Shown here in pieces: positions 6,378 to 45,792 of a DNA stretch of 49,131 nucleotides. This DNA is from Candidatus Zixiibacteriota bacterium (GTDB taxonomy: Bacteria > Zixibacteria > MSB-5A5 > GN15 > FEB-12), in assembly GCA_019038695.1 (NCBI GenBank), contig JAHOYZ010000043.1, forward strand, positions 1 to 49,131. The letters run 5' to 3'. Numbering within the stretch: the first letter of the stretch is position 1; each line of letters starts with the position of its first letter. The translations under genes were made by a program, and so were the position numbers. The notes beneath the pieces are model-generated. The model saw only the letters and a list, made by a program, of their open reading frames with translations, ran no database searches and was not told where the DNA came from.

Positions 6378-6389
6378 CTGCTGTGGTGA

Positions 6390-6418
6390 AGTATACGCCG
6401 AAAAGACGAAAAAGTCAA
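6390..6418 (-). promoter_or_regulatory. Sigma-70 type promoter of the 5.3-kb gene
   Basis: TTGACT (6418-6413), 17-bp spacer, TATACT (6395-6390) on the minus strand, about 74 bp upstream of the ATG at 6316. Confidence 0.75.
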
Positions 6419-6452
6419 TGTGTAGGGTGTTTCGGTCCTGATGATCCACCTG

Positions 6453-6481
6453 TTGACTACGACGCGCTAAACTGCTATCAT
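6453..6481 (+). promoter_or_regulatory. Sigma-70 type promoter of the hsd operon
   Basis: TTGACT (6453-6458), 17-bp spacer, TATCAT (6476-6481), ending 33 bp before the chosen hsdR start. It diverges from the promoter at 6390-6418. Confidence 0.7.
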
Positions 6482-6514
6482 TCCCTCCAAACTAACAGCA
6501 GCAGTGCGGAGAAT

Positions 6515-12212: not shown

Positions 12213-12383
12213 TATGGCGAGGGATTGTATTTCGTTTGCTTCAGTGAAGCGACAGTGATGACATTGATGGTTTAGAGTTGAATACTGGACGTAAACCAGA
12301 TCACACAGTGAGTACCATGCACGCAGCATTACCCGGGAAACGAGATAGTTGCCAGAACGCATCCTCCGCAAGGAATGATACCT

Positions 12384-14186
12384 ATGTCAGATGAGCCAGA
12401 AAGCACAAATCTCAATGCCATTTCCGCTCAAACGTGGGCGACTCTCTTGTCGAAACGCTATGGCTTCGACTACGACTCGACTGTCGAGTATCTGAACGTA
12501 ATAGAAAAGGCTAACGACGAACTTGATGAGCGTGCTCCGCATATGCCTTACCGAGCCCAATCGGATGCAATGATGGCTGTTCTTGCAACCGAGCTGGGAT
12601 CTGTCGCGGCGCAGTTGCCAGAAAACTTGCGGTCAAAGACCCTACATCCTCGTGACATGCGCGAATACATGGAACTAAGTGCGATAGTCCAACACCTCAG
12701 TAAATATCCCATGCCACTCGGAGACACATCGTTCATGTGCGAAGTAACTGATGTCCTCATAGAGTGTATTAATGGGGACAGAAACAAGTTGGTTAACACA
12801 GGACTGCCATCCGTTGTTCCAGTAAATGGAAGTTATGTAAGTGTTCTAGGCTCCTTAGTCTATCCCTCGAAGCTCCCGTTAATGACCAAGGAACGGCCCA
12901 GAGACGGTCGTGTATCTACCATCCGCTATTTCTGGGATCGATGTCCAGATGTTCCAGCCAGGATTGTCACAGGACCCTTCGGAAGTCACATTCGAGTGAC
13001 AGGTAGGGCCATCCAGTACTCGCAGGACGGTACGGGTTACGACTTGGATGGAAAGAAGATAATCGCCCCCACATATGAAGAGGCCTTTTGTAACACCGAG
13101 CTATCACCATGCCAGGTTGGAATTCTTCCAGCACTCCGGGAACAACTGATTCCATTGAAGCTGGCTGTATTGACAATCCTGCGTGATTGTCTATCGCGAC
13201 AAAGTGTCTCTGAACTCTGGCCTCGCTGCCTCGACGTTTTGACAAGTACCCTCTGCGCAAATAGGATAGACTTTTTGCTGATGGTAGACTCCCATTACCT
13301 AAAACTGGAAACACGCCTGACCCTCAGAAATATGTGGTATCCTGAGCCAGTCAACTGGGGCGGCCTAAGAGAGCTTCTACAGATCATCGGACTTTATGAA
13401 AGAGAGCTGAAGCTCGATCATTCGCTTTCCAAAGAGAAATATCTAATGAAGTACATTGCCGAAGATCGCAATGGTCGACGCTTCTTTTCATTCAACACAC
13501 TAGGTGATGTCCTAAGACACCCTGAAGCGGAGCGCCTCAAGCCGGCTTTGCTGAGTCTGCACAGGATGTTCGGTGAGGAACTCTTGTTTTGGGAAGAGTT
13601 TGACAAGCGGGCGGAGGCAGCTCTCAACTCAGAATTCTATGAGCCAATCGCTCTGACTCACATGGTTAAGCGCGGTGTATCGGAAGAATTTAGGAACTCC
13701 ATGGAGAGATACGGTAGCGCACTGCAAAACAACCTTGAATCGGACTTGGAACTCAAGAAGCTCGATCCTACCAGAATGAATTCTGAAGCTTCAGCATCTA
13801 AATCCCCATTTCACGAAATTCGCGACCTCAAGTGGGAAGAGATTACTATCACGTTCGTATCACATCATTCGGTGTCCATTGCGGCGCGTTCGGTTAGTGA
13901 GACCTACACATATGCTGAGTTGGGCTTTGCGGACGGCCGTAGTGTCGATAAACCTAACACGCGGTGGGTCGTACTGAAAACCATGGCTAAGCGGGGAGAG
14001 ATATCATATTCAGTGGATATTGAACAGACTACCCGCGATACGGCCAAGGCTGCCATGAAGGACATCAGAAAACTTCTCAGAGTAGCTATCGGCCTTGAGG
14101 ATGACCCGTTCCATAAATACAGAAAGGTCAACGCCTATCGGCCGAAATTCCAGCTTGTCGACGCATCCTACAGCAACGGTGCGTGA
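12384..14186 (+). CDS. Unrecognised 600-residue protein next to the type I R-M operon
   Basis: I do not recognise the family. The start is ATG 12384 because AGGA (12371-12374) is 9 nt upstream; ATG 12375 would be only 1 nt from it. The product looks soluble, with no signal peptide or membrane segments. The N-terminal 500 residues are mostly helical and mixed in charge. The last 110 residues (from WEEITITFVSHHSVSI) look like a separate alpha/beta domain with a YAELGFADGR ... RWVVLKTMAKRGEI stretch that could be a winged-helix-like DNA-binding fold; that is a guess from sequence pattern. Same strand as hsdRSM, 171 bp downstream, within the candidate island, so a defence or island-maintenance role is possible but unsupported by any motif. 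Confidence 0.8.
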   Translation: MSDEPESTNLNAISAQTWATLLSKRYGFDYDSTVEYLNVIEKANDELDERAPHMPYRAQSDAMMAVLATELGSVAAQLPENLRSKTLHPRDMREYMELSAIVQHLSKYPMPLGDTSFMCEVTDVLIECINGDRNKLVNTGLPSVVPVNGSYVSVLGSLVYPSKLPLMTKERPRDGRVSTIRYFWDRCPDVPARIVTGPFGSHIRVTGRAIQYSQDGTGYDLDGKKIIAPTYEEAFCNTELSPCQVGILPALREQLIPLKLAVLTILRDCLSRQSVSELWPRCLDVLTSTLCANRIDFLLMVDSHYLKLETRLTLRNMWYPEPVNWGGLRELLQIIGLYERELKLDHSLSKEKYLMKYIAEDRNGRRFFSFNTLGDVLRHPEAERLKPALLSLHRMFGEELLFWEEFDKRAEAALNSEFYEPIALTHMVKRGVSEEFRNSMERYGSALQNNLESDLELKKLDPTRMNSEASASKSPFHEIRDLKWEEITITFVSHHSVSIAARSVSETYTYAELGFADGRSVDKPNTRWVVLKTMAKRGEISYSVDIEQTTRDTAKAAMKDIRKLLRVAIGLEDDPFHKYRKVNAYRPKFQLVDASYSNGA

Positions 14187-14343
14187 TAATTCACCGACCC
14201 GCTCTGAAAAATCTCACGAAATCTTCAAATTGATATAGGTTGATTCATAGTCACTTAGGTGTGTTGCTTCTGCCCTGGACTTACTTTCCTGGGCATAATC
14301 CTCTATCCCCCGTGTTTTTTCGCCATTAGCCATGAAGACCGCA

Positions 14344-14424
14344 AGGTTTGGCGACTAATCAGGCTATAGACCCCTGAGGTCGAGAACCAGGAAGGTGACT
14401 TCATTGCCAAACCTGCCTTCCTGG
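14344..14424. repeat. Interlocked pair of perfect 9-bp inverted repeats
   Basis: AGGTTTGGC (14344-14352) pairs with GCCAAACCT (14406-14414), and CCAGGAAGG (14387-14395) pairs with CCTTCCTGG (14416-14424). The order is a-b-a'-b', which in RNA could form a pseudoknot and in DNA could be paired recombinase or regulator binding sites. The gap 14187-14447 also holds a weaker hairpin (TGCCC ... GGGCA, about 14272-14294) and a T-run near 14314; no other gene is seen in it. Confidence 0.6.
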
Positions 14425-14447
14425 CTCTTCTGTAATGTGGCACGTCA

Positions 14448-14693
14448 ATGGCGAGAGTTGACTTACACGAAGATTCCACCAATCGGGCCGATCCGACGAC
14501 CGAGCCAGTCCGTAAGGACGGTGGCTCTTGTCGGAAGGAACCCGGCATTGCGTTTCTCGGACAGTCTCTTTCTGCAGACGAGTACCGGGAAGCTTGCGAA
14601 AATCTTCAGACGTTCTTCCAACTTCTCCGTGATTGGCGTGAGCAGGAGTCCAATGGCGACACGAAAACGACACTTTCAGGCGAGCAGGGTTAG
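14448..14693 (+). CDS. Small hypothetical protein of the integration module
   Basis: 81 residues, family not recognised. The N-terminal half is polar and probably disordered. The C-terminal half (SADEYREACENLQTFFQLLRDWREQE) looks like an authentic amphipathic helical segment, as found in small genes next to integrases. It overlaps the start of the next gene by 41 nt, suggesting coupling. No good ribosome-binding site precedes the ATG, so the start is uncertain. The longer overlapping frame from 14395 is less likely here: its N-terminal sequence is unlike protein, and it crosses the inverted repeats. Confidence 0.5.
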   Translation: MARVDLHEDSTNRADPTTEPVRKDGGSCRKEPGIAFLGQSLSADEYREACENLQTFFQLLRDWREQESNGDTKTTLSGEQG

Positions 14694-15153
14694 GCGTCGG
14701 CACTGCTATACCATGGCAGAGTTGGCCGATCTCCTTGGAGCATACATACGAACCATACAGAACTGGCACAAGGCCGGGATGACCCCAATCGACGAGACCC
14801 AGCGACCGATGCTATTCCTCGGCAGCGCAGTCCGCTCTTTTCTGGAAAACAGGCGAAAGAGCCGAAGGCATACTCTCCAACCAGGCCAGATGTTCTGCCT
14901 CAGGTGTCAATCTGGACGGTGGTCTGAAGCCGAAAGTTTAGGTTTTGAGTTCACCGGGAAGGTTGTCGGCAAGGACGATGAGCAGGTTCTGGTTACTGGA
15001 AAGTGCGACTCTTGTGGAGCGAAACTGGTGCAATTCGGTACGCATCGGAGTCTGTTACAGGGGATTTGGACCGTGCAATTCCAACAAGCAAGAAAGGGAT
15101 TATATGGTACTAACCAACCCCCTTGTAATACTGACTTAACGGAAGGATGTTAG
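14653..15153 (+). CDS. HTH and zinc-ribbon accessory protein of the integration module
   Basis: 166 residues from ATG 14653, preceded by AGGAG at 4 nt. A basic N-terminus leads into a MerR/excisionase-like helix-turn-helix (YTMAELADLLGAYIRTIQNWHKAGM, about 19-43), then a C-x2-C ... C-x2-C zinc ribbon (Cys82, 85, 118, 121). Proteins of this build are often found just upstream of tyrosine recombinases, and a role in recombination directionality or in regulating the integrase is plausible. The frame is open upstream to 14395, but that extension lacks a start signal and lies over structured non-coding DNA. The stop is directly before the integrase start. Confidence 0.75.
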   Translation: MATRKRHFQASRVRRRHCYTMAELADLLGAYIRTIQNWHKAGMTPIDETQRPMLFLGSAVRSFLENRRKSRRHTLQPGQMFCLRCQSGRWSEAESLGFEFTGKVVGKDDEQVLVTGKCDSCGAKLVQFGTHRSLLQGIWTVQFQQARKGLYGTNQPPCNTDLTEGC

Positions 15154-15154
15154 C

Positions 15155-16255
15155 ATGAGAGCCAATCCATCAAACGAGAAGACGAAGCGACGCTATTTTC
15201 GATGGCTGAAAGAGGCGGAAGGGTGCACCGAATCGACGATACGATCAGTTGAACGTGCGATCTGTGTCTTCGAAGACTATACTGAGTCTGCAGATTTCAA
15301 GATATTCTGTGAGCGGCAGGCGACTGGCTTCAAGCGGTGGCTGAACGAGAAACGCCGCAGTGGAAAACCGCTGTCCACCGCTACGGTGTACCAAACGATC
15401 AGACACCTCAAAGTCTATTTCAAGTGGTTAGCCGGTCAACCTGGGTACAAGTCCCAGATCAGTCTTGATGCGGTTTCCTATCTGTCACTCGACAAGAAGA
15501 CGGTGAGAGCTGCTTTGGCTCCCCGTCCTCGCAAGTTCCCTGATTTGGATTATGTGATCGGATTGACAGGTTCCATTGATGTTCAGAACGACATTGACCA
15601 GCGTGACCGTGCTCTTGTGGCGTTTCTGCTATTGGCTGGTATGCGATATACTGCGATCTGCACATTGACGCTCGCGTGTGTTGAGCTTGACAGCCTGACC
15701 GTTCACCAGGACCCAAGGCTGGGAGTAAAGACGAAGTTTGGTGAGTCGATTACGACCCGTCTTTTTGGATTTAGCGATACGCTCACTGAATATGTCGTGA
15801 GTTGGGTAGAGTATCTATCGGAAACGAAGGGCTTTCAGCCAACTGATCCGCTTTTCCCCAAAACAAAGACGGGTCAGGTGGAGGGAGGATACACCTTTGT
15901 AGCCTCTGGTGTAGAGCCAGTGCAGTGGTCTGGCGGCAACGCGATCCGGGAGATTCTTCGGCGACGATCATTGGCAGCTGGACTACCCTACTTCGCTCCG
16001 CACGCATTCAGGCGTGCTGCGATTCAGTTAGCTGGTAGACACTGCATAACACCGGAACAATACAAAGCTGTCAGTCAGAATCTGGGACATAAGGATGTGG
16101 CGACTACACTATTGACCTATGGTATGCTGGATAGCCACAAAGTGGGAGAAGTTCTTGGGGAAATCGATTTCGCTAACAAGCCTGGCTTCAAAGGCGAGGG
16201 CATTCCTCCAGGCGAGGTTGCACAATTCCTGAAGAAATACCAAAGTAAGGCTTGA
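15155..16255 (+). CDS. Tyrosine recombinase / phage-type integrase
   Basis: 366 residues, with GGAAGGA 8 nt before ATG 15155. The N-terminal SAM-like core-binding domain (about 1-100) is followed by the catalytic domain. Active-site residues can be placed at Arg164 (GMRYTAI), His283 and Arg286 (HAFRRA), His312 (GHKDVATTLLTY) and the nucleophile Tyr322, so the set looks complete; the beta-hairpin lysine is probably near residue 193. It belongs to the XerC/D-phage integrase superfamily, which breaks and rejoins DNA at attachment sites, often tRNA 3' ends. It lies 1.65 kb from tRNA-Arg(CCU) and is a plausible integrase for the island bounded by the 15-bp repeats. The promoter of the next gene overlaps its stop codon. 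Confidence 0.93.
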   Translation: MRANPSNEKTKRRYFRWLKEAEGCTESTIRSVERAICVFEDYTESADFKIFCERQATGFKRWLNEKRRSGKPLSTATVYQTIRHLKVYFKWLAGQPGYKSQISLDAVSYLSLDKKTVRAALAPRPRKFPDLDYVIGLTGSIDVQNDIDQRDRALVAFLLLAGMRYTAICTLTLACVELDSLTVHQDPRLGVKTKFGESITTRLFGFSDTLTEYVVSWVEYLSETKGFQPTDPLFPKTKTGQVEGGYTFVASGVEPVQWSGGNAIREILRRRSLAAGLPYFAPHAFRRAAIQLAGRHCITPEQYKAVSQNLGHKDVATTLLTYGMLDSHKVGEVLGEIDFANKPGFKGEGIPPGEVAQFLKKYQSKA

Positions 16256-16280
16256 CTTGAGGGATATACGACGATATATT
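16252..16280 (+). promoter_or_regulatory. Promoter of the XRE/serine recombinase pair, leaderless type
   Basis: TTGACT (16252-16257), 17-bp spacer, TATATT (16275-16280), then only 7 nt to the ATG at 16288. Transcription would start at or within a few nucleotides of the start codon. Confidence 0.65.
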
Positions 16281-16287
16281 GTGAGGT

Positions 16288-16476
16288 ATGAACGATTTGA
16301 TCTCAGAACTTGAGAGCTATCGATTGGAGAATCGGATTACGCAGAAGGAGCTTGCGGAGCTGCTGGGAGTGGCTTTCGTGACAGTTAGCCGTTGGCTCAA
16401 TGGCCATGCGCTGCCCAGTAAGATACACGAGTACCACATCCGGAAGCTACTCAAGTCTGGAGGCAAGAAGCGATGA
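16288..16476 (+). CDS. Small XRE-family HTH regulator
   Basis: 62 residues, almost entirely one Cro/CI-type helix-turn-helix (ITQKELAELLGVAFVTVSRWLNG, about 18-40). It overlaps the serine recombinase start by 4 nt (ATGA), so the two are a coupled pair. It may repress its own promoter, which sits directly in front of the ATG, and so keep the recombinase silent; that is inferred from context. Confidence 0.85.
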   Translation: MNDLISELESYRLENRITQKELAELLGVAFVTVSRWLNGHALPSKIHEYHIRKLLKSGGKKR

Positions 16477-17945
16477 AAGCCGTTATCTATGCGCGTGTAT
16501 CCTCCAAGGAGCAGGAGCGAGAGGGCTTTTCGATTCCAGCCCAACACAAGCTACTGATCGAATATGCCAACAAGCATGATTTTCAGGTCACTCAGGAATT
16601 CACGGAAGTAGAGACGGCGAAATCATCCGGCCGCACTGAGTTTGGCAGGATGGTAGAATACCTCAACGCACAGAGCGACGTGCGCTGCATTCTGGTTGAG
16701 AAGACCGACCGACTATATCGTAACTTCAGAGACTATGTACTTCTCGAAGCGTTGGACCTTGAACTCCATCTGGTCAAGGAAAACGAGGTTATAAGCAAGA
16801 ACAGTCAGTCGCACGCAAAGTTTGTTCATGGGATAAAGGTCTTACTGGCCAAGAGCTTCATCGACAACCTCTCGGAAGAAGTGAAGAAGGGGATGCGTGA
16901 GAAAGCTGAGCAAGGCGAATATCCAGGCAAAGCTCCCTTCGGCTACTGCAACGATCCAATAGGCAAGTCTATTGTCCCTGATGAGAAATACGCGCCACTA
17001 ATCAAGCGGCTCTATCAGCTGTACTCGAGTGGCAACTACTCGCTGGCCAGTTTGAGAGACAAGGTTTATGAGGAAGGATGGCGGACGGCCAAAGGGAGGA
17101 AGTTAGCAAAAAGCATGGTTGAAGCTGCTCTTAAGCGCCGATTCTATTTGGGAGAGTTCGTCTGGAAGGGAACGACGTACCCCGGTCAGCACGAACCTCT
17201 CATATCAAAGAGCTTGTTCGATAGCGTCCAGGCCGTACTCACATCTGCTCCCAGACAGCAGTCAGGCAGGAGAGAGTTCTTGTTCCGAGGACTTCTGAAA
17301 TGCGAGCACTGTGGATGTGCCCTTGTCGGAGAACTCAAGAAGGGGAAATATATCTACTACCACTGCACTCAGGCACGTGGTCCATGCAATCATCCCTGGG
17401 TTCGTGAGGAAGTCCTCGACCAGCGCATGATGGATGTGCTCAAGGCTGTTGAAATAGATGATGGGACTGTTGGAGATATTGTTCAGGCGCTGAAGGACAG
17501 CCATCAAGATGAGACAACTTTTCGGGACTCGGAGTTGTTACGTCTGCGAAAGCGTGATAGAGAACTGCAATCCCGTCTTGATCGGGCTTACGAAGACCGA
17601 CTTGATGGAGTGATCGACGAGGAATACTGGCGGCGTGTCTCCGCCTCTTGGCGAGATGAGCAGAACGGAATTGCCCATCAGATTCAGAAACTCGGTCAGT
17701 CAGACAGGAATTATATCGATCAAGCCGTCGAGATATTAGAACTCTCAAAGATGGCGCATTCACTGTACTTAGAGCGCAAGACGGCTGAGAAGCGACAGTT
17801 GTTGCAGTCTCTACTATCGAACTGCTCGTCGGATGGTATAAACCTTTGTCCCACATACCAGACACCCTTCAACTTGATAGCTGAAGGGCGTCAGAATCAA
17901 TTTAAGTACCCCCGGCAGGACTCGAACCTGCTACCCTCGGTTTAG
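16473..17945 (+). CDS. Large serine recombinase
   Basis: 490 residues. The resolvase N-terminal domain has the catalytic Ser10 in YARVSSKEQ and further conserved arginines (EKTDRLYRN). The recombinase domain follows (YPGKAPFGYC), then a zinc ribbon (LKCEHCGCAL ... YHCTQARGPC) and a coiled coil, the layout of large serine integrases. The last 13 residues (KYPRQDSNLLPSV) are encoded by the reverse strand of the tRNA-Arg gene, so the present C-terminus depends on the integration junction. Serine integrases do not usually use tRNA genes, so either this enzyme or the tyrosine recombinase may have placed the element here. Confidence 0.93.
   Translation: MKAVIYARVSSKEQEREGFSIPAQHKLLIEYANKHDFQVTQEFTEVETAKSSGRTEFGRMVEYLNAQSDVRCILVEKTDRLYRNFRDYVLLEALDLELHLVKENEVISKNSQSHAKFVHGIKVLLAKSFIDNLSEEVKKGMREKAEQGEYPGKAPFGYCNDPIGKSIVPDEKYAPLIKRLYQLYSSGNYSLASLRDKVYEEGWRTAKGRKLAKSMVEAALKRRFYLGEFVWKGTTYPGQHEPLISKSLFDSVQAVLTSAPRQQSGRREFLFRGLLKCEHCGCALVGELKKGKYIYYHCTQARGPCNHPWVREEVLDQRMMDVLKAVEIDDGTVGDIVQALKDSHQDETTFRDSELLRLRKRDRELQSRLDRAYEDRLDGVIDEEYWRRVSASWRDEQNGIAHQIQKLGQSDRNYIDQAVEILELSKMAHSLYLERKTAEKRQLLQSLLSNCSSDGINLCPTYQTPFNLIAEGRQNQFKYPRQDSNLLPSV
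17907..17921 (+). repeat. Attachment-site copy at the tRNA-Arg 3' end
   Basis: TACCCCCGGCAGGAC covers the discriminator base, the 3' acceptor strand and part of the T arm. It is repeated exactly at 875-889 in direct orientation. Confidence 0.5.
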
Positions 17946-19682: not shown

Positions 19683-21353
19683 CTATCGCATCGTCCCCAC
19701 ATAATGGGATGTAAGCTGCTTCTCGCGCACCGCCGGATCGGTGTAGTCTGGTAATAGCATCGGCGCCACACGTCCATCAGCTACTCCGGCCTTGTCTACT
19801 TCCGCGTTGTACTTCACAGCATGATCGAGACTCAGCTTGCCGTCTTTGGCATCACCCTGGATATATTTACCAGCGCTTTCTCCGGCAATACGGCCATAGA
19901 CCATAATATCGAGCAACGAGTTACCCATCAGGCGATTCTCGCCGTGGGTGCCGCCACCAGCTTCACCGGCAACAAATAGTCCCGGGACACAGGTGTCCGC
20001 TGTTGGTTTGAATTCCAAGCCACCATTCTGGTAGTGCAGAGTCGGATAGATAAGCATCGGTTCTTTAGCGATGTCGATACCGAAACGTTCATACAGAATA
20101 TGTTTGCCAGGGAATTCGCGTTCGACCGTACCCTCACCGGAAAGCATTTCAATCATCGGCGAATCAAGCCAGATACCGAGCTTGCCGGTCGGAGTCGGTA
20201 CGCCTTTGCCGCTGCCAAGACATTCCTTGATGATGGCGGAAGCCTCAACATCACGCGGCTCACGCTCGTTAACAAACTGGTTACCCTCGATATTAACCAG
20301 GTTCGCACCCGAGCCACGGAACTTTTCAGTAATCAAAATACCTTCCGCCTGCTCCGGGAAAACGATTCCGGTCGGATGGTACTGCACTGTGTGCAGGAAA
20401 CAAATCGGTATGCCCGCTCGGTAGCCCATGACGATGCCATCAGCGGTAGCGCCATAATGGTTGGTGGTCATGAAACCCTGAATGTGCAGACGGCCACACC
20501 CTCCGGTAGCCATAATGACCGCCTTGGCCTTGGCAACCATATACTCTTCCGTTTCGAGATTGTACAGGACAGCGCCAGCACAATGACCGTGTTCGTTGAG
20601 AATCAACTCGACGGCAGGAGCGAACTCGATAACTCTGATATCGGCCGAACGGTTACGAGCTTCGTCTCGCACGGTGCGCATCATCTCTGCGCCGGTGATG
20701 TCGGCCGCATAATGCATCCGTTTTCGTGACGTACCACCACCATGAATAGTCTTGAGGGTGCCATCATCAGTTTTCGAGAACCCACAACCCAATCCTTCCA
20801 GCCATTTGATCACGCTGGGAGCCTTTTGGGACAGGGTTTCGACCAATTCGGGCGTGTTCTTAAAATGACCGCCACCCATGATATCGAGATAATGAAAATA
20901 CGGTGAATCCTTGTGGCCCTTTGTAGCGGCTTGGATGCCGCCTTCAGCCATCATCGTATTGGCATCGCCGTGACGCAGCTTAGTAGCGATAACGACCTTG
21001 GCGCCATGCTCCTGCGCCAGCAGAGCGGCCGATGTTCCGGCTCCGCCGCCACCAATGATAAGCACATCCGTCTCGATGTCAACTTTGCCCAGATCCACCT
21101 TAGCCGGATCGACCCGACTGGTAGCTTCGAGCAGGTCAGCTATTTCATGGGCAATACGGTACCCTTTACTGGGACCAACCTGGACTTCCCGACGACCTTC
21201 TTCTTTGACGTCGGGATGATTCTTGAGCATCTCATGGCGCTCATCAAGGCTCAGAAATGGCACTTCCTCGTTGGCCTTCTTGCGCTCCACGCGCTCAGCG
21301 CGAGTGCTCTCGACAACCTTGATAAGCTTCTTTAGTTCTTCTGGATATGGCAT
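19683..21353 (-). CDS. Fumarate reductase/succinate dehydrogenase-type flavoprotein subunit
   Basis: 556 residues, with AAGGA 6 nt before the ATG. An extra N-terminal segment of about 95 residues precedes the FAD-binding GGGGAG (101-106). Family hallmarks follow: AEGGIQAA, the substrate-domain HPTG, EREPRD with the presumed proton-transfer arginine, LHYQNGG, and the C-terminal GENRLMGNSLLD. In SdhA/FrdA the motif S-H-T carries the histidine that binds FAD covalently; here it is A-N-T (131-133), so FAD is probably not covalently bound, as in soluble thiol:fumarate reductase or L-aspartate oxidase. The capping C-terminal domain is short. As last gene of the HdrC-HdrB-FrdB-FrdA operon it is most likely the fumarate-reducing or succinate-oxidising subunit of a soluble complex. 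Confidence 0.9.
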   Translation of the reverse strand: MPYPEELKKLIKVVESTRAERVERKKANEEVPFLSLDERHEMLKNHPDVKEEGRREVQVGPSKGYRIAHEIADLLEATSRVDPAKVDLGKVDIETDVLIIGGGGAGTSAALLAQEHGAKVVIATKLRHGDANTMMAEGGIQAATKGHKDSPYFHYLDIMGGGHFKNTPELVETLSQKAPSVIKWLEGLGCGFSKTDDGTLKTIHGGGTSRKRMHYAADITGAEMMRTVRDEARNRSADIRVIEFAPAVELILNEHGHCAGAVLYNLETEEYMVAKAKAVIMATGGCGRLHIQGFMTTNHYGATADGIVMGYRAGIPICFLHTVQYHPTGIVFPEQAEGILITEKFRGSGANLVNIEGNQFVNEREPRDVEASAIIKECLGSGKGVPTPTGKLGIWLDSPMIEMLSGEGTVEREFPGKHILYERFGIDIAKEPMLIYPTLHYQNGGLEFKPTADTCVPGLFVAGEAGGGTHGENRLMGNSLLDIMVYGRIAGESAGKYIQGDAKDGKLSLDHAVKYNAEVDKAGVADGRVAPMLLPDYTDPAVREKQLTSHYVGTMR

Positions 21354-21385
21354 TACAGTCCTTCTTTCACATCACGGTTGTTGGC

Positions 21386-22141
21386 TCACAGGTACGTATT
21401 ATCCTGTGGCGCCCACTCTTCTTCCCCGGTAGCCGGTTCCATCTCGCGCTCAGTGTAAACCTTCTTGAGCGTGTCTTCATCCATCCCCTTAAGCTCATCA
21501 AGCCCTTTCTGGAAATGTCCGGTCTCAATCTTAGCGACCATATTGACCAGATGTTCGGCGCGAGGAGCTAGAAGCGCACCATTGATACGACGAGCCAGTT
21601 GAGCGATGTGGTACTGGGGAAGTTCCCCCATGCACCGACTGGCACACAAACCACACTGGATGCAGTCGAACGAAATCTGGGCCGCAGCGGCGATATCGCC
21701 TCGTTTCAAGGTGGCGATGTAGTCCATCACCTGCACGTCCATCGGACAGACCTTGGTGCAGGCATTGCAGGCCACACAGCGGAACAGCTCCGGATAGAGA
21801 GAGAAGATTTCTTCGGCCTTGCCTTCAAGTACGCTGAAATCATACATAGCGCGGTTAGCCGGGTAGAATGGCAATTGGGTCAGATACATATCCGGCTCGA
21901 CTACCGTCTGACAAGCCAGCCCGACCCGAATCTTGTAGTCACCGGGAACGCGATACACTGTAGCACAGGCACCGCAAATGCCGCCGCGACACCCGCAACC
22001 GCGGATGTACTTGTAACCGGCATACTCCATCGCCTTCATGATCGTCAGCGACTCGGGCACCTCGTACCGTTTTCCCATGATGTAAATGGGAATCATCTTC
22101 GTCTCGGCTTTTGCCGAGGAAACTTGGGTTGCCGTACTCAT
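21386..22141 (-). CDS. Fumarate reductase-type iron-sulfur subunit (2Fe-2S plus two 4Fe-4S motifs)
   Basis: 251 residues, GAGG upstream of the ATG. A plant-type ferredoxin region carries C-x-C-x4-C-x2-C (Cys49, 51, 56, 59) and Cys77 for a 2Fe-2S cluster. Then come two C-x2-C-x2-C-x3-C motifs (Cys122-132 and Cys160-170) for 4Fe-4S clusters. Classical SdhB/FrdB has 2Fe-2S, 4Fe-4S and 3Fe-4S centres; here the last motif looks like a full 4Fe-4S site, closer to TfrB-type subunits. It should wire the flavoprotein to the HdrBC-like subunits. It has no membrane segment. The gap to the flavoprotein gene is 32 bp. Confidence 0.9.
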   Translation of the reverse strand: MSTATQVSSAKAETKMIPIYIMGKRYEVPESLTIMKAMEYAGYKYIRGCGCRGGICGACATVYRVPGDYKIRVGLACQTVVEPDMYLTQLPFYPANRAMYDFSVLEGKAEEIFSLYPELFRCVACNACTKVCPMDVQVMDYIATLKRGDIAAAAQISFDCIQCGLCASRCMGELPQYHIAQLARRINGALLAPRAEHLVNMVAKIETGHFQKGLDELKGMDEDTLKKVYTEREMEPATGEEEWAPQDNTYL

Positions 22142-22201
22142 TTGATCCTCATGATATCTATGTCAATTATTGTTCTTGTCGTACTCATGATTTCCACCCC
22201 A

Positions 22202-23077
22202 TCACACCAGTTGTTTCTCTTTGAGGAGGTTCAACGAAACATCCCGATTAAGTTTGAACTGGTCTTCATCGGCAGGCACTCCAAGCGCCACCGCCAGCAA
22301 CTGCGTGAAATAGTAAATCGGGACTTCAGTCGCATCCTCGATAGAGCTGAGCATCTTCTCCTGACGATGTCCGAGGTTGTAGTCACATAACGGACAGGTC
22401 AACGCCAGTGCTTCAGCACCATTGGTTGTCGCATCACTCAGGATATCGTGTGAGAGTTTCAACGCCACCTCCGGACTGCCCAACACCTGGTATGATCCGC
22501 AGCATTCGGTCGCCGAAGGAAAATCAACCACTTTGGCACCTATTGCCTCAAGGAACTCGTGGAAAACACTGGGACGATCCGGGCGGTCAAGTGCGACTTC
22601 TTTCGGACGAAGCAACGTACAACCGTAATACGGCGCAACCGCCAAGTCATCGAGCGGTTTCTTCAGAGCCGCCTTGACCTTGTCCCAACCAATTTCGTCT
22701 CGAAGGAAATCCAGCATGTGAACTACCTTCACTTCACCGGCGTAGTCGGGTTCTTCATCCATGAAGTCATTGATCGTGCCACGTTTTACCTCGTCTTCTT
22801 TCATCAGACGATTGGCTCGCGCCAGCGTGTTGTAACACATAGAGCACAGGGTCAGCACGGTGTCATGACCGCTCTCTTTGACGCGAATCAAATCACGCAC
22901 CGGAGCAATCAGATGAATCAAATCGTCATCAGCCAACGAATATACAGCACCGCAACAATTCCACCGCTCCAGTTCCTCGACCTCAACTCCGAGTGCCTTC
23001 AATGAGGCCAGCGCGGAATGTTCGAGGTTGGCAGCTTTGGTCTTGAGCGTGCATCCAGGATAATAGCTTATCTTCAT
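22202..23077 (-). CDS. HdrB-like subunit with two CCG domains
   Basis: 291 residues, GAGGT before the ATG. Two cysteine-rich CCG repeats are complete: Cys9, Cys41-42, Cys78 and Cys81; and Cys153, Cys192-193, Cys228 and Cys231. In heterodisulfide reductase HdrB such motifs hold non-cubane 4Fe-4S clusters that cleave CoM-S-S-CoB. In bacteria the same fold appears in SdhE/MfrE subunits of quinone-linked fumarate reductases and in other thiol/disulfide or electron-transfer enzymes. Here it lies between the HdrC-like and FrdB-like genes, so it probably supplies the electron-donor site of the complex. There are no transmembrane helices. Donor identity (thiol, menaquinol through an unseen anchor, or ferredoxin) is not shown. 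Confidence 0.9.
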   Translation of the reverse strand: MKISYYPGCTLKTKAANLEHSALASLKALGVEVEELERWNCCGAVYSLADDDLIHLIAPVRDLIRVKESGHDTVLTLCSMCYNTLARANRLMKEDEVKRGTINDFMDEEPDYAGEVKVVHMLDFLRDEIGWDKVKAALKKPLDDLAVAPYYGCTLLRPKEVALDRPDRPSVFHEFLEAIGAKVVDFPSATECCGSYQVLGSPEVALKLSHDILSDATTNGAEALALTCPLCDYNLGHRQEKMLSSIEDATEVPIYYFTQLLAVALGVPADEDQFKLNRDVSLNLLKEKQLV

Positions 23078-23139
23078 ATTTTACCTCAATCTACTTGCAG
23101 TCACACCAAACAAATCGTTCTCACCGATAACCGGATGGC

Positions 23140-23547
23140 TCATGAAGAAAGCTTACGAAAACCGGCCACCATCGCAATCGTCGGCAGGTCTATGGTATCC
23201 TCGGGCTTCATTTCAGCCGGTCCAACCTTGTCGACATTGTCGCGCAACTGAACCTGCCGGAGAGCTTCCATTACCGCCGGGATATCAATACCGCGCGGGC
23301 AGCGAACCTCGCAGGTGTGACAGGAAGCACACAGCCAGGCCATGTTGCTCTTCTTTAGTTCCTCGGCCTGACCAAACTGGATGAGGTGCATTACATGGCG
23401 CGGAGCAGATGTGGCCTGCGTGTTCATCGGACACGAGGCCGAACAGGTGCCGCATTGCATACATCGGGCCACAGCATCACCAGCTATCTCATCGATCTTG
23501 TGGCGCAGTTGGTCATTCATCGTCTTAGCGGAAATCTTCAGGGGCAT
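23140..23547 (-). CDS. HdrC-like iron-sulfur protein
   Basis: 135 residues from ATG 23547. That start is chosen because GAGGAAGG lies 5 nt upstream; the frame is open to 23601 without another good site. Two C-x2-C-x2-C-x3-C motifs (Cys29-39 and Cys73-83) bind two 4Fe-4S clusters, as in heterodisulfide reductase HdrC, and the length fits. It is the first gene of the operon and follows the promoter and Rex-type palindrome. It should pass electrons to the HdrB-like subunit encoded 62 bp downstream. Confidence 0.9.
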   Translation of the reverse strand: MPLKISAKTMNDQLRHKIDEIAGDAVARCMQCGTCSASCPMNTQATSAPRHVMHLIQFGQAEELKKSNMAWLCASCHTCEVRCPRGIDIPAVMEALRQVQLRDNVDKVGPAEMKPEDTIDLPTIAMVAGFRKLSS

Positions 23548-23633
23548 CGAAACCTTCCTCCGCATAGGTGTCGTCTTCGCCATCGTCCGGCAAACCAACA
23601 AAACTTATCACCAAGACTGATGTCGAAGACCCA

Positions 23634-40834: not shown

Positions 40835-41323
40835 CTACTTTTCCTCGTCGTCAAGATCGCGCATAGCTCGCAGAATTCCGAGCGCACTGGATCCGGTAGC
40901 GATCTCAGTCAATTTCTGCATCCGGCTTTCATCCGCACTGAATTTCTTCTTCAGTCTTTCCTCGTATGCCTGCATGAGCACTTCCAGGAGCTTTTCCAAT
41001 TCGTATGGTTTCGGCAGGTAACTGAAAGCACCCAGTTTAGTGCATTCTATCGCAGTGTCGACAGAGCCGTGGCCGGTGAGGATAATAACCTCAAGGAATT
41101 TGTGCTCGTCCTTGAGAATCTTCAGTACTTCCTGTCCGTCAATGCCGGGCATTTTCAAATCGAGGAGGGCAATATCGAATTTCTCATTACGCGCAATCTC
41201 GACAGCTTCCGCTCCGCGGGCGGCTGTCCGCACATTGAAGTCCCTCATCTCCAATCTTTTGGCGATTGATTCGAGGAACTCCACTTCGTCGTCAACAATC
41301 AGCAATCTAATCTTATTTGACAT
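40835..41323 (-). CDS. Stand-alone response regulator receiver protein
   Basis: 162 residues. A CheY-like receiver occupies about 1-125 with all key residues: Asp11/Asp12, phospho-acceptor Asp55 (LLDLKMPG), Thr83 (LTGHGS) and Lys105 (LPKP). A short helical tail (RLKKKFSADESRMQKLTEIATG) carries no DNA-binding domain, so it acts through protein contact or as a phosphate sink. It is last in the four-gene operon, 19 bp after the receiver-transporter gene. Its receiver resembles the one fused to the transporter (both have LLDLKMPG and LTGHGS), so both are probably served by the same kinase. Confidence 0.93.
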   Translation of the reverse strand: MSNKIRLLIVDDEVEFLESIAKRLEMRDFNVRTAARGAEAVEIARNEKFDIALLDLKMPGIDGQEVLKILKDEHKFLEVIILTGHGSVDTAIECTKLGAFSYLPKPYELEKLLEVLMQAYEERLKKKFSADESRMQKLTEIATGSSALGILRAMRDLDDEEK

Positions 41324-41342
41324 GGGTTGTGCCTTTCATTCT

Positions 41343-43376
41343 CTAGAACCCAATGAATCTCCAATATCCAAAAATTGTCCATCCCCAAAGAACAGCAAAC
41401 GACAGCAATAGTACTGCGGCGCCATGCTTGAGAAAATCGGCGAGAGTTACCAACTGCTCACCTGTCACCGGATCTTTTGCCATAGCATAGGCAATTGCAT
41501 TTGAGGGAGTACCAATTATAAGCATGTGGGCAAATGACGAAGCGAAGGCGGTAGCAAAGCCAATCATCCAGGGGTGAGTATTGCTTATAGTCGCCATCGG
41601 CACAGTAATCGGACCAATAGCAGAAACTGTGGCCCCGTCGCTCATGAAGTTAGTACATATTCCAGTGAACAGACTGGCCGCCATAGCTAACCCGGCTCCG
41701 TCGCTCATGAAGTCCGGCAGAATACTGAGGAAACTGTCGGCCAGGAACAACGCTCCACCGGTTTCTGCCAGGCCTTTACCAAGGGCGCTGGCACTGGCGT
41801 AGAGGGCGATCACCTCCCAGTGGATGGTGGTAATGTCGCGCCATTTGAGTATTCGCATTATGTTCAAAACCACCAAGCCGAGGATGATCGGACCACCCAT
41901 GCCGAAAGTATCGCTCGCCCCGATCCAGAGAGCTATGACGCCCACCAGAACTGCGCCAGTAAGATACTCGTTTTTATTCATTGGTCCGATCTGGTCGGAA
42001 GCCTGACGCACTATTGCTGAAACATTAAGCGATTTAATCTTAATTTTTTTGCGGAAGGTAAAGTAGAAATAGGCTGCGATGACCAGGGCCATGACCGGCA
42101 CAAAGGGCATTCCGTAGGTCATCCACTCGCCGAAGGTCGGGGCTATATCGTAATCCTGTAAAATACCCATCATGATTGCATTCCGACCTCCGGCAGCGGG
42201 CGAACCAGGACCACCCGAGTTGGCCGTGTAGCAGAGAGCCAAGGCAAACATGACGGCCAGCGCACGATCCGTCTTGACCCCAGCGGCACGAATCGAGGTG
42301 GCATAGACCATCATGAACAGCGGCATGATAAATGCTACCAACGCATGTTCTGAGATCACCGAACAAGCCATAGCCAGCAAAGGGAGAAAGAGAAACAGAA
42401 GTCGCGGCAGAGTCTTTGCCGGTCCTAGTAGCAGTAACCCTATACGTCGATCCAATCCCGTTTTGGAAATCGCCACCGCTATGGCCAACACTCCGAATAT
42501 GAATATGACCGCATCCTTGGCGTAGGCTTTGGCAATGTCATCGGGTCGAAGAACGCCTGTGAAGTACATCAATACCCCGACAAGCAAAGCCGTGATCCCT
42601 ACCGGCACAGCTCCTGAAGCCCAGAATAACGCCGCCACGACCAACGTAGCAAGCATCACACGGGCCTTAGTTGATAATTCCTCGGCGGTCTGCACCACTT
42701 TGACAGTGTTACCGTCGGTATCCTGGGTCTTTTTGTACATTTTATTTTTATGACTGTAATAGTCAGCGATAGTCTCATTTTCACTCATCATGCGATAACC
42801 GGCAAAGCCCATATTGATATCGGTTATCTCCCCGGTCTTGGGGGCGTCGAGAATGTCAATCAAACGCTGCGGCGAGGGAGCCAACAACGCCAGAGCAAAG
42901 AGTAAGGCACCGAGGATTATTACGCCCGGGCGGGAATTATGAGATCCGATCAACCATTTCTTCACCGATCCCTTCTCTACAAGTGGGATCTCATGGCGAG
43001 CCATAACGTGGGGTCGGTCCTCGCGGGCTGCTTCAATCGTTTCAAGAAGCTTATCCAATTCGCATGGCTTCTCAAGATAAGCATATGCTTCCAATCGTCC
43101 AGTTTCCATCGCCGAGGCCATTGAGCCATGTCCTGTCAGTAGAATGATCTGAACGGCAGGACGGAATTTCTTCAACTCTACGAGCGTCTGCTCACCGCTC
43201 AAGCCCGGCATTTTCAGGTCCAGGAGAACAATATCAATATCATAATCGTTCCTGGCAATCTTGATTGCATCTTCTCCATTATCGGTCTCAATGGTCTCAT
43301 AGCCACGCAAGTTGAGTCGTTCGGCAATATCCGATCGAAACTGATCCTCATCATCTACAAGCAGTATCTTGGCCAT
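41343..43376 (-). CDS. Receiver domain fused to a DASS/SLC13-type anion symporter
   Basis: 677 residues in one frame. Residues 1-125 are a CheY-like receiver with Asp8/Asp9, phospho-acceptor Asp53, Thr81 and Lys103 all in place. After a linker and a first membrane helix (about 150-167) comes a polar loop (170-235), then about ten hydrophobic segments of DASS-type. The re-entrant hairpin signatures that normally read S-N-T are S-E-H (342-344) and S-D-G (579-581), while GTPSNAIAY (622-630) is close to the family's GTPPNA. DASS proteins move dicarboxylates, citrate or sulfate with sodium; the altered tips make the substrate uncertain. Operon position next to a kinase suggests phosphorylation directly controls transport. 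The start follows the CBS gene stop by 4 bp. Confidence 0.92.
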   Translation of the reverse strand: MAKILLVDDEDQFRSDIAERLNLRGYETIETDNGEDAIKIARNDYDIDIVLLDLKMPGLSGEQTLVELKKFRPAVQIILLTGHGSMASAMETGRLEAYAYLEKPCELDKLLETIEAAREDRPHVMARHEIPLVEKGSVKKWLIGSHNSRPGVIILGALLFALALLAPSPQRLIDILDAPKTGEITDINMGFAGYRMMSENETIADYYSHKNKMYKKTQDTDGNTVKVVQTAEELSTKARVMLATLVVAALFWASGAVPVGITALLVGVLMYFTGVLRPDDIAKAYAKDAVIFIFGVLAIAVAISKTGLDRRIGLLLLGPAKTLPRLLFLFLPLLAMACSVISEHALVAFIMPLFMMVYATSIRAAGVKTDRALAVMFALALCYTANSGGPGSPAAGGRNAIMMGILQDYDIAPTFGEWMTYGMPFVPVMALVIAAYFYFTFRKKIKIKSLNVSAIVRQASDQIGPMNKNEYLTGAVLVGVIALWIGASDTFGMGGPIILGLVVLNIMRILKWRDITTIHWEVIALYASASALGKGLAETGGALFLADSFLSILPDFMSDGAGLAMAASLFTGICTNFMSDGATVSAIGPITVPMATISNTHPWMIGFATAFASSFAHMLIIGTPSNAIAYAMAKDPVTGEQLVTLADFLKHGAAVLLLSFAVLWGWTIFGYWRFIGF

Positions 43377-43380
43377 TCAA

Positions 43381-43947
43381 TCAATCCTTGCTGTCAGTAC
43401 TGGTGGTTGCCTGTCGCATCTGTTCCATTACTTCATCGCAAAGGTCGGACAATCGAATCAGTCCGACAGGGCGGTCCTGTTGTGTTACCAGAACCGATAA
43501 TGTTTGCCAGGTCACCATCTGATGAATAACATCACAGATCGGAGCATCTACATCGATGTGCTCTCTCAAGGGGCGCATAACACTTCGGACCGGCACCGCA
43601 ACCGCCCCCTGGCACATTTCCGAAAGCCTTCGCTGAAGAACACTGAAGTGATCCAGTGCCGTTTGCAGGATCGCATCGCTCACACCTGCTTTGTTGAGCG
43701 TGTCCTGATCTGCTACGACATGGCTTCGTGGTTCCAGGGCTTTCAGAAGAGCCAGTTGACCCAGTTTACCTATAATTCTACCATTGTTGTCGGCAATCAA
43801 TACGGCTTGATATGGCTGTCTGCCCTGGTCCGAATTGAACCGGGACTCCGCTAAGCGAATGACAGCATCCAGAATTGTGGCCGAGGAATCAACTGTCGGG
43901 TACTGATCAATGGGCACCATCAGGTCCCCGGCCTTGTTTGCACTCAT
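43381..43947 (-). CDS. CBS-domain pair protein
   Basis: 188 residues, soluble. Two CBS motifs flank an insert: the first about 5-75 (DLMVPIDQYPTVDSSATILDAVIRLAESRF ... AVLIADNNGRIIGKLGQLALLKAL), the second about 120-180 (VRSVMRPLREHIDVDAPICDVIHQMV ... SVLVTQQDRPVGLIRLSDLCDEVM). CBS pairs bind adenine nucleotides and gate transporters or enzymes. It lies between the sensor kinase and the receiver-transporter genes, so it may add an energy-state input to the same transporter. No other domain is seen. Confidence 0.9.
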   Translation of the reverse strand: MSANKAGDLMVPIDQYPTVDSSATILDAVIRLAESRFNSDQGRQPYQAVLIADNNGRIIGKLGQLALLKALEPRSHVVADQDTLNKAGVSDAILQTALDHFSVLQRRLSEMCQGAVAVPVRSVMRPLREHIDVDAPICDVIHQMVTWQTLSVLVTQQDRPVGLIRLSDLCDEVMEQMRQATTSTDSKD

Positions 43948-43971
43948 GTTACAAATGGCTCCTATGTTGAG

Positions 43972-45729
43972 TTACCGTTTCTGCTTAACCGGTAAAACAA
44001 GGGTGAAAGTAGTTCCAACGCCCTTAGTACTTTCTACCTCAATCTCACCGCCGAGACCACGTACAATTCCATAACTTACCGACAGGCCAAGTCCAGTGCC
44101 TTTACCCACTTCTTTGGTCGTGAAGAAAGGCATAAACACCTTGTCGAGCTGTTCTTGTATCATTCCACATCCGGTATCTTTAATAGATATTCGAACCCTG
44201 TTGCCGTGACTGGATGTTGTGATAGTAATCGTTCCCTGTTCGTCACCTATGGCATCGCTGGCATTATTGACAATATTCAGGATTACCTGCTGAAGCTGAT
44301 TAGAGTCGGTTGTTAGTTTTGGCAACGAGCGATCGTAATTACGTTCAACCGCAATACTTGAGACCTCAATTTCCGGTCCCAGGAGATCGTCGATGACGCC
44401 ATTTATGATGTCATGCACGTCGTGTTCCTGCAGGTCAAAGTCGGTTCTTCTGACAAATCGAAGAAGCTTACGAGTAATATCCCGGCAACGAAAAGCGGAT
44501 TCCTGGATTGTACTCAACCGTTTGTGAAGGTCATTCTCGTCCAGCGTGTGGCCGAACTGGGGATCCATATAGTCCATTAGGAGACCGGATTCCTCGGTTA
44601 TCACGGCCAGCGGATTGTTGATTTCATGAGCGATACCGGAAGCGAGTTCGCCAACCGACGCCAATTTGGCCGCATGACCCAACTGTGCTCGAGTCCGATC
44701 CGATTCCATTTGCATATCTACGAGTTTGCGGGCACGAATCACCGCTACAACAAAACCGAACAGAACGAAAAGCACACTGATTATTATTATCCGCAGTCTG
44801 AACCCGGACAGGAAAGCTTGCGTGTCAGTTGAGGCCGGTTGTACAATAACTGCCCAGTTGGCCATCTGAAGCCAGGAGTAGCCGTACAATAGGTATCTAC
44901 CATCAATGCGAGCCTCCCCTGCCCCGACGTCAGGTTTTTGTGGAGGTACAAATGAGGATGCCTCCAGGGGAGTTCCCAGACGAGGCGTCGCCAATTGATA
45001 GTTTCCGGTCTGATTGACAATCGATGTGATGGCTTCAGCGGAACCGGTTTGAGATCTCAGATAGTTATATATTTCCTCAGGTGCCAAGGTAGCTCGCAGT
45101 ACGACGAAAGCTCCATCGATAGTACGACTGACCGCGATAGTGAAGTGAGGACGCTGACGAAAACCGAGGTAGATATCGGTGATGATAAAACCAGTTTGAT
45201 CATCGTACAATGTCTTATACCATGATTCCTGTCGGTAATTGCGTTTTTCGAGAGAAGGATACGGGCCTGCATAGGACGTCTGTACTCCGGTTGAATCAAA
45301 AAAACCAATATCGACAAAAGCGTTACTGTTCTTCCTGAGTCCGTCGAGATCGTCTTCCATCACTTCCGACGTCGGCGGGAATTCGTGCCGGGGATCGTCG
45401 ATTAGATTCGAGAGATTAACCAACCTTTCCGACAGGAAAAGTTCCAGAGTATTGGCCTGACTTTCGGCAATCGCCTGCAGATGCAATCGCTTGCTTTCCC
45501 GTACAATTGCATCATACTGAATGAGGAAAAAGGCGGCCAGGATGGCTACAGGGGCTACATACATCAGGAGAAGCCGGACAACCTGTTTGCGTCTCATTAC
45601 ACGATAGTGTTCCTCACTAAACGGAAGGAACTCAGCAAACGATACCGTCTTCTTTTTCTCGGCCGCAGGCACAATAGTGTCTTTCTCGTTTCGCCTTAAG
45701 TGCAGCCGGACCCGAGTATTCGCGAACAC
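43972..45729 (-). CDS. Membrane sensor histidine kinase with dCache-like sensor
   Basis: 585 residues from GTG 45729; this start is uncertain, since another in-frame GTG at codon 20 and the ATG at codon 45 are possible. A membrane helix (about 51-70), an extracytoplasmic dCache-like domain (about 75-305, with FFDSTGVQTSYAGPYPSLEKRNYRQESWY) and a second helix (313-331) precede the kinase core. HisKA carries His368 (GELASGIAHEINNPL, DctB/NtrB-like). HATPase_c has the N box VILNIVNNASDAI and the glycine boxes DTGCGM and GKGTGLGLSVSYGIV. dCache domains bind small ligands such as carboxylates and amino acids. It is first in the operon and is the likely phosphodonor for both receivers. Confidence 0.92.
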   Translation of the reverse strand: MFANTRVRLHLRRNEKDTIVPAAEKKKTVSFAEFLPFSEEHYRVMRRKQVVRLLLMYVAPVAILAAFFLIQYDAIVRESKRLHLQAIAESQANTLELFLSERLVNLSNLIDDPRHEFPPTSEVMEDDLDGLRKNSNAFVDIGFFDSTGVQTSYAGPYPSLEKRNYRQESWYKTLYDDQTGFIITDIYLGFRQRPHFTIAVSRTIDGAFVVLRATLAPEEIYNYLRSQTGSAEAITSIVNQTGNYQLATPRLGTPLEASSFVPPQKPDVGAGEARIDGRYLLYGYSWLQMANWAVIVQPASTDTQAFLSGFRLRIIIISVLFVLFGFVVAVIRARKLVDMQMESDRTRAQLGHAAKLASVGELASGIAHEINNPLAVITEESGLLMDYMDPQFGHTLDENDLHKRLSTIQESAFRCRDITRKLLRFVRRTDFDLQEHDVHDIINGVIDDLLGPEIEVSSIAVERNYDRSLPKLTTDSNQLQQVILNIVNNASDAIGDEQGTITITTSSHGNRVRISIKDTGCGMIQEQLDKVFMPFFTTKEVGKGTGLGLSVSYGIVRGLGGEIEVESTKGVGTTFTLVLPVKQKR

Positions 45730-45764: not shown

Positions 45765-45792
45765 AATATAGGTTGGACTCCACTATTGTCAA
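45765..45792 (-). promoter_or_regulatory. Promoter of the kinase/CBS/receiver-transporter operon
   Basis: TTGACA (45792-45787), 16-bp spacer, TATATT (45770-45765) on the minus strand; the predicted start is near 45758, about 30 nt before GTG 45729. Confidence 0.65.

Follow-up and report, generated by a model that had tools for sequence, protein, structure and literature searches.

A receiver domain fused to a DASS-fold transporter: a candidate two-component output found among apparent sulfate reducers

The window we have analyzed, a whole stretch of 49,131 nucleotides, belongs to a Zixibacteriota genome (3.28 Mb, 96% complete). Its minus strand contains a four-gene operon, in the order histidine kinase, CBS-pair protein, receiver-transporter fusion and stand-alone receiver, as seen in the ORF list of the window. 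The best explanation we can offer for this operon, with a probability of about one half (0.52), is a self-contained two-component system with a membrane transporter as its output: The kinase would sense an external anion, most likely sulfate, and phosphorylation of D53 in the fused receiver would gate the entry of sulfate. The features on which this reading is based are the following.

45765..45792, minus strand: sigma-70-like promoter (TTGACA-16-TATATT) preceding the kinase gene, a consensus match only
43972..45729, minus strand: membrane histidine kinase (585 aa from the start of the first ORF), with the Pfam domains dCache_1, HisKA and HATPase_c
44842..45486, minus strand: dCache_1 sensor domain of the kinase (residues 82-296, Pfam), with invariant W170, R191, H195 and R212
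43381..43947, minus strand: CBS-pair protein, 188 aa, Pfam CBS at residues 120-174 (E 3.9e-9)
41343..43376, minus strand: receiver-DASS fusion protein, 677 aa, Pfam Response_reg (4-114) and Na_sulph_symp (231-672) in one frame
43035..43367, minus strand: receiver domain of the fusion (residues 4-114), Pfam PF00072 (E 1.2e-22)
42930..43034, minus strand: linker from the receiver to the first membrane helix (residues 115-149), with E129 and R149 invariant and W141 in 61/62
42672..42929, minus strand: TM1 and enlarged TM1-TM2 loop (residues 150-235); the loop is predicted to be periplasmic and is the least conserved part
41346..42686, minus strand: DASS transport core (residues 231-677), from Pfam and the structural model
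42345..42353, minus strand: S342-E343-H344 in place of the first Ser-Asn-Thr hairpin motif (62/62), aligned to the SNT of VcINDY
41634..41642, minus strand: S579-D580-G581 in place of the second hairpin (S377-N378-V379 of VcINDY), 62/62
40835..41323, minus strand: stand-alone receiver, 162 aa, Pfam Response_reg, no output domain

The initial annotation had placed the four ORFs on the same strand with gaps of 4-24 bp, and had read a complete set of receiver residues (D8, D9, D53, T81 and K103) in the fusion. Both descriptions are correct. The gaps are 24 bp between the kinase and CBS genes, 4 bp between the CBS gene and the fusion, and 19 bp between the fusion and the stand-alone receiver. The promoter has 11 of 12 consensus matches, the best of 15 candidates in the scanned region. 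The true start of the kinase is probably the GTG at 45672, downstream of the start of the first ORF, because this codon is preceded by GAGAAAG and the alignment of related kinases begins at about residue 22. A Pfam scan of the four ORFs detected no DNA-binding domain in any protein of the cassette.

An assembly error at the linker may be ruled out as the origin of the fusion, and so may chance: Dozens of assemblies made independently, some of them genomes in a single contig, contain intact full-length copies with 55-88% identity. Split copies are only due to a scaffold gap, to contig ends or, in one case (G088), to a frameshift. In the single-contig genome G115 the cassette is split between two places by two N gaps (L070, around 6990-7200, and L071, around 6380-6800). 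We have rejected a genuine rearrangement in this genome, since both breakpoints are runs of N flanked by an identical 140 bp sequence, which indicates a scaffolding artefact.

The initial annotation had also suggested a search for other receiver-DASS fusions and their neighbourhoods. In 34 of 132 Zixibacteriota genomes we find the fusion, either whole or as a fragment where a contig ends or is broken, and many genomes of the phylum contain full-length intact copies with 64-88% identity. The search outside the phylum gave 197 candidate stretches encoding a relative, of which the best 80 were used; the fusion continues down to 55% identity in species genomes. Records with the fusion are labelled as Acidobacteriota, Calditrichota, Planctomycetota, Gemmatimonadota, Fibrobacterota, Myxococcota/Deltaproteobacteria, Desulfobacterota and others, some of these labels being binning names of MAGs which may be wrong. 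The fusion is present in at least seven phyla besides Zixibacteriota. Homologous cassettes bearing the fusion are found in Desulfobacteraceae, Desulfobacula and Desulfotignum records.

In a tree of the transport domain, the 84 fusions form one clade (SH-aLRT 99) and the fusion therefore arose once. It is an old fusion. No loss of the fusion within the clade was seen among the sampled sequences. In its sister group, whose transporters have no receiver domain, the operon consists of individual genes for DASS, kinase and receiver, side by side (L216). Such an operon hints, in the Rosetta-stone manner, at a joint function of receiver and transporter.

Two other arrangements of DASS genes lie further out than this sister group. 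Outside the fusion clade, a CBS protein lies directly before a DASS protein of 532/533 aa without receiver (L075 6341-8526 and L077 4763-7132). A second, unfused system consists of a dCache kinase, a receiver or double receiver, a 615-aa DASS and a receiver-CBS protein (L074 2197-7581); systems of this type are also present at L072, L066, L067, L069, L056, L210 and L212. The 615-aa DASS has an enlarged loop after its first hydrophobic segment, and its hairpins are SDH and ADG instead of SNT. We considered whether its N-terminus is a degenerate receiver and rejected this: Its sequence has a hydrophobic segment near residue 30 which is followed by an extended hydrophilic part, and no receiver profile matches it. 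In Desulfobacula-type genomes (L200-L202 and L209-L211) the region around the fusion is about 30 kb or longer and comprises four DASS genes, several kinases, numerous single receivers and a CBS protein, as in one signalling hub for several transporters.

The fused receiver is conserved. In an alignment of 62 diverse fusions, D8, D53, T81 and K103 are identical in all sequences and D9 in 61, which supports a receiver competent for phosphorylation. The joining of such a receiver to a transporter, beside its kinase, is ancient and conserved. The linker has a mean conservation of 0.66, compared with 0.69 for the receiver. A stand-alone receiver is found downstream of 69 of 78 fusions, and its residues D11, D12, D55, T83 and K105 are invariant in 54 sequences. 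A particular case is found in a single lineage, which contains second fusion copies (L055 7620-10293 and L109 8001-10031) accompanied by neither the kinase nor the second receiver. These are the only fusions with a changed acidic pair (VDQD, D9 to Q), and the same two copies are the exceptions to kinase adjacency. In this one lineage, loss of the kinase would seem to be followed by decay of the phosphorylation site.

The kinase gene adjoins the fusion on its upstream side in 53 of the 55 loci with enough flanking sequence. H368, N485, D518 and the G-box are invariant in the kinase. A model of its sensor domain, which is a standard dCache (pLDDT 88.9), has the KinD sensor as its best PDB match, in pyruvate-bound and mutant forms, and also matches DctB with succinate or malonate; a sequence search of PDB with the same domain gave zero matches. 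Its invariant R191, H195 and R212 would suit an anion. The CBS gene is a less constant member of the cassette, present in 41 of 55 and missing from 14. Only the second CBS domain of its product is above the Pfam cut-off.

The transporter is a divergent branch of the DASS fold which, to judge from its motifs, is distinct from the canonical Na+-coupled members. It passes the Pfam model PF00939 Na_sulph_symp (119.9 bits, cut-off 27) and falls below the NCBIfam DASS model TIGR00785 (168.8 bits, curated cut-off 198.6). An AlphaFold2 model of the fusion has a mean pLDDT of 87 and a pTM of 0.81, with low pLDDT at residues 80-95. When residues 134-677 are compared with DASS structures, the Z scores are 44.3 for NaDC3 (the alignment spans 457 residues), 43.5 for NaCT, 41.7 for Pho90, 39.6 for VcINDY and 39.4 for NaS1. 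Foldseek places the human sulfate carrier NaS1 first by E-value, although with ranks so near to each other this does not speak for any substrate. The two SNT hairpins of VcINDY bind Na+ and the substrate, a carboxylate (PMC9098524). The fusions have SEH and SDG in their place, and also an invariant R398 where VcINDY has a proline. Acidic residues at these positions would be odd in a dianion symporter, and the coupling ion and substrate are uncertain. The transporter had been annotated as a DASS anion symporter: The fold is indeed that of DASS, while the label of Na+-anion symporter appears premature and is doubtful, since the TIGR00785 cut-off is missed and both SNT motifs are replaced.

A link with sulfate respiration is suggested by the genomes in which the fusion is found. 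All 34 Zixibacteriota genomes with the fusion have dsrA and/or aprA, compared with 21 of the 98 without it (Fisher p 2e-17; by genus 25/25, p 1e-10; both values are uncorrected for kinship). A relative of the same genus (G001) has neither the fusion nor dsrA and aprA. Full-length dsrA is found in 30 of 37 fusion genomes, mostly outside the close kin of the window; in the other 7, dsrA hits are absent, weak or partial. On another of its contigs, the host encodes sat, aprBA, dsrAB, dsrC and dsrP. The fusion is not essential, because 21 Zixibacteriota genomes positive for dsr/apr lack it, some of them with a different DASS beside dsrA or aprA (for example G009, G042, G045 and G050). The association could also reflect other needs of the sulfate-reducing lifestyle.

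An 81-aa ORF lies right after dsrB (L219 7116-7361, minus strand). The DsrD profile, which was of interest as a sign of the reductive direction, gave no match to it in a Pfam/NCBIfam scan, nor any in a genome search whose controls also gave none; from its place, this ORF is perhaps a diverged DsrD. Desulfobacterium autotrophicum HRM2 contains five full DASS loci, whose positions agree with those of HRM2_07790, 38230, 38270, 38300 and 40290, and the sister of the fusion without receiver maps by position to HRM2_38230. According to a 2018 survey, this gene is highly expressed below 100 uM sulfate (PMC5840216). In its sections on the DASS family and on D. autotrophicum, the survey contradicts itself on two other genes: HRM2_38300 is associated with high sulfate in one passage and with low sulfate in another, and the reverse is found for HRM2_40290. 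TOL2_19410 was considered as a possible instance of the fusion and rejected, as gene spacing points to a 526-aa DASS instead.

Two other regions of the window may be mentioned. Positions 6383-17945 contain Type I restriction-modification genes (an EcoEI-type HsdR, with HsdS and HsdM recognized by inspection of the sequence), followed by an ORF resembling an integrase and by a large serine recombinase: This is probably a mobile island. Positions 19683-23601, minus strand, encode in a row a FAD-binding protein, a CCG-domain protein (HdrB-like) and a 4Fe-4S protein (HdrC-like), which may be part of the anaerobic electron transfer of the host.

What we infer from these sequences concerns phosphotransfer, gating and its sign, the ligand, the substrate, and what the second receiver and the CBS protein do. 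The periplasmic dCache domain of the kinase would sense a small external anion, most likely sulfate, and the kinase would set the phosphorylation of D53 in a receiver placed at the cytoplasmic N-terminus of a DASS-type elevator transporter. This receiver would be seated on TM1 through a linker which is conserved and presumably not floppy. TM1 is part of the scaffold domain in known DASS structures, so phosphorylation could alter receiver contacts or dimerization and lock or release the elevator. Sulfate import might in this way be adjusted within seconds, without transcription. The stand-alone receiver would probably compete for the same phosphate, as a return path or as the sink proposed in the initial annotation, and the CBS protein, where present, would probably report adenylate status (AMP/ATP or APS), in line with the energy sensor proposed there; both of these roles are guesses. 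Since none of the proteins encoded in the cassette has DNA binding as its output, the most parsimonious reading is that transport is controlled directly.

Four other readings have to be weighed against it. A phospho-gated transporter for something other than sulfate (thiosulfate, sulfite, sulfide export, sulfonates, C4-dicarboxylates, or pyruvate/lactate) seems unlikely to us. It is favoured by the replacement of the substrate-binding SNT motifs with SEH and SDG, by the resemblance of the kinase sensor to KinD (pyruvate) and DctB (C4-dicarboxylates), and by other DASS genes which lie nearer to dsr/apr in relatives. On the other hand, the fusion tracks dsr/apr over many phyla, the sister gene HRM2_38230, as mapped by position, is reported in the 2018 survey to be induced at low sulfate (PMC5840216), and related clusters are assigned to sulfate uptake, by similarity, in a 2025 study (PMC11887813). 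Rather unlikely is the opposite flow of information, that of a transceptor, in which the conformation or flux of the transporter would alter phosphorylation or dephosphorylation of its own receiver, informing the kinase and the second receiver, which would relay the signal to other targets. The second receiver is indeed conserved (69/78) and diffusible, many Desulfobacterota cassettes lie beside further receivers, kinases and sigma-54-type regulators, and sensing coupled to a transporter is known in the SLC5-STAC kinases (PMC9100948). Nevertheless, the Zixibacteriota cassette has no conserved transcription factor, and the transporter is joined to a receiver, the usual position of an output, and not to the kinase.

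The receiver might also govern the location, oligomerization or turnover of the transporter rather than its transport cycle, which we consider improbable. Dimerization is a common mode of receiver action, and the SPX domain of Pho87 and Pho90 is also used in targeting and degradation (PMC7381174). However, a linker nearly as conserved as the receiver, with its invariant E129 and R149, points to mechanical coupling over a tether, and the cassette contains no dedicated protease or adaptor gene. Ordinary transcriptional control, with the kinase and response regulators setting transporter expression and the fusion being incidental, is very improbable: The receivers of the cassette are without DNA-binding domain, and all the phosphorylation residues of the fused receiver are kept across phyla. 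Such control is nevertheless the model drawn for Desulfobacteraceae in the 2025 study (PMC11887813), and sigma-54-type regulators are found near some Desulfobacterota cassettes.

Response regulators are known to act on DNA, RNA, enzymes and proteins. If direct gating is correct, the fused output would be a transporter, and phosphorylation would control membrane flux directly. We can go further only tentatively, at somewhat less than even odds: Direct gating of a secondary transporter by His-Asp phosphorylation would be a new output class of two-component systems. This class would have a single origin, would then have spread through dissimilatory sulfate reducers belonging to many phyla, and would act there as a switch on the entry step of sulfate respiration; the Na+/substrate motifs of the transporter would have been rebuilt (SEH/SDG), perhaps for proton coupling. 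Much of the carbon oxidized in marine sediments is oxidized by sulfate respiration. Should sulfate be the substrate, the fusion would be a candidate for a fast valve at the first step of this process, which might open or close uptake within seconds, as opposed to switching genes on. This would be relevant to the question of how sulfate reducers change from sulfate uptake of high affinity to that of low affinity and back. A further use of the fusion may be as a genomic marker of dissimilatory sulfate reduction.

The initial annotation knew of no described system with this set of genes, which is true only in part. Clusters of DASS genes, cache kinases, regulators and CBS proteins have been published in 2025 as sulfate-uptake clusters of sulfate reducers (Desulfosarcina, Desulfobacteraceae), with transcriptional control by promoter-binding WalR-type regulators proposed in the main text (PMC11887813). 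As in our case, a DASS, a cache histidine kinase, receivers and a CBS protein are found there in one cluster. The difference lies in the regulators described there, which bind DNA, whereas both receivers of our cassette are without DNA-binding domain. The main text of that paper is silent on a receiver covalently fused to the transporter, and the cassette described here reaches Zixibacteriota and at least six further phyla. The fusion adds to this cluster type, possibly as a new output class of two-component systems. The 2018 survey describes a clade Cii of DASS proteins in sulfate reducers, with 474-691 aa, and its main text does not mention the fusion (PMC5840216); the fusion in one Desulfobacula-type genome has 691 aa, the same as the greatest length given there. 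Among open-access papers, we have found none on a receiver-transporter fusion.

More distant systems share parts of this architecture. VcINDY and the SLC13 proteins (NaDC, NaCT, NaS1) have the same fold over residues 134-677 (Z 39-44) and belong to the same Pfam family. They differ from the fusion in sequence (about 22% identity), and the fusion has SEH/SDG, the enlarged TM1-TM2 loop and the receiver. Pho87, Pho90 and Pho91 of yeast are likewise DASS transporters with a regulatory domain at their cytosolic N-terminus (PMC7381174), Pho90 being the fourth-best structural match to our model. In yeast this domain is SPX, which senses inositol pyrophosphates, in a eukaryotic phosphate carrier, while here it is a Response_reg domain with phosphorylatable residues. 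Removal of SPX gives up to eightfold more uptake, and Pho87 and Pho90 are thereby a precedent for the throttling of a DASS transporter by its N-terminal domain (PMC7381174). Finally, in the SLC5-STAC histidine kinases (CbrA, CrbS and RpuS; PMC9100948) a transporter is covalently joined to a two-component protein. Our cassette contains no SLC5 or STAC domain, the kinase being dCache_1-HisKA-HATPase and the transporter a DASS. In those kinases the transporter is on the input side, whereas here a transporter of another fold family, DASS, is joined to the receiver, on the output side.
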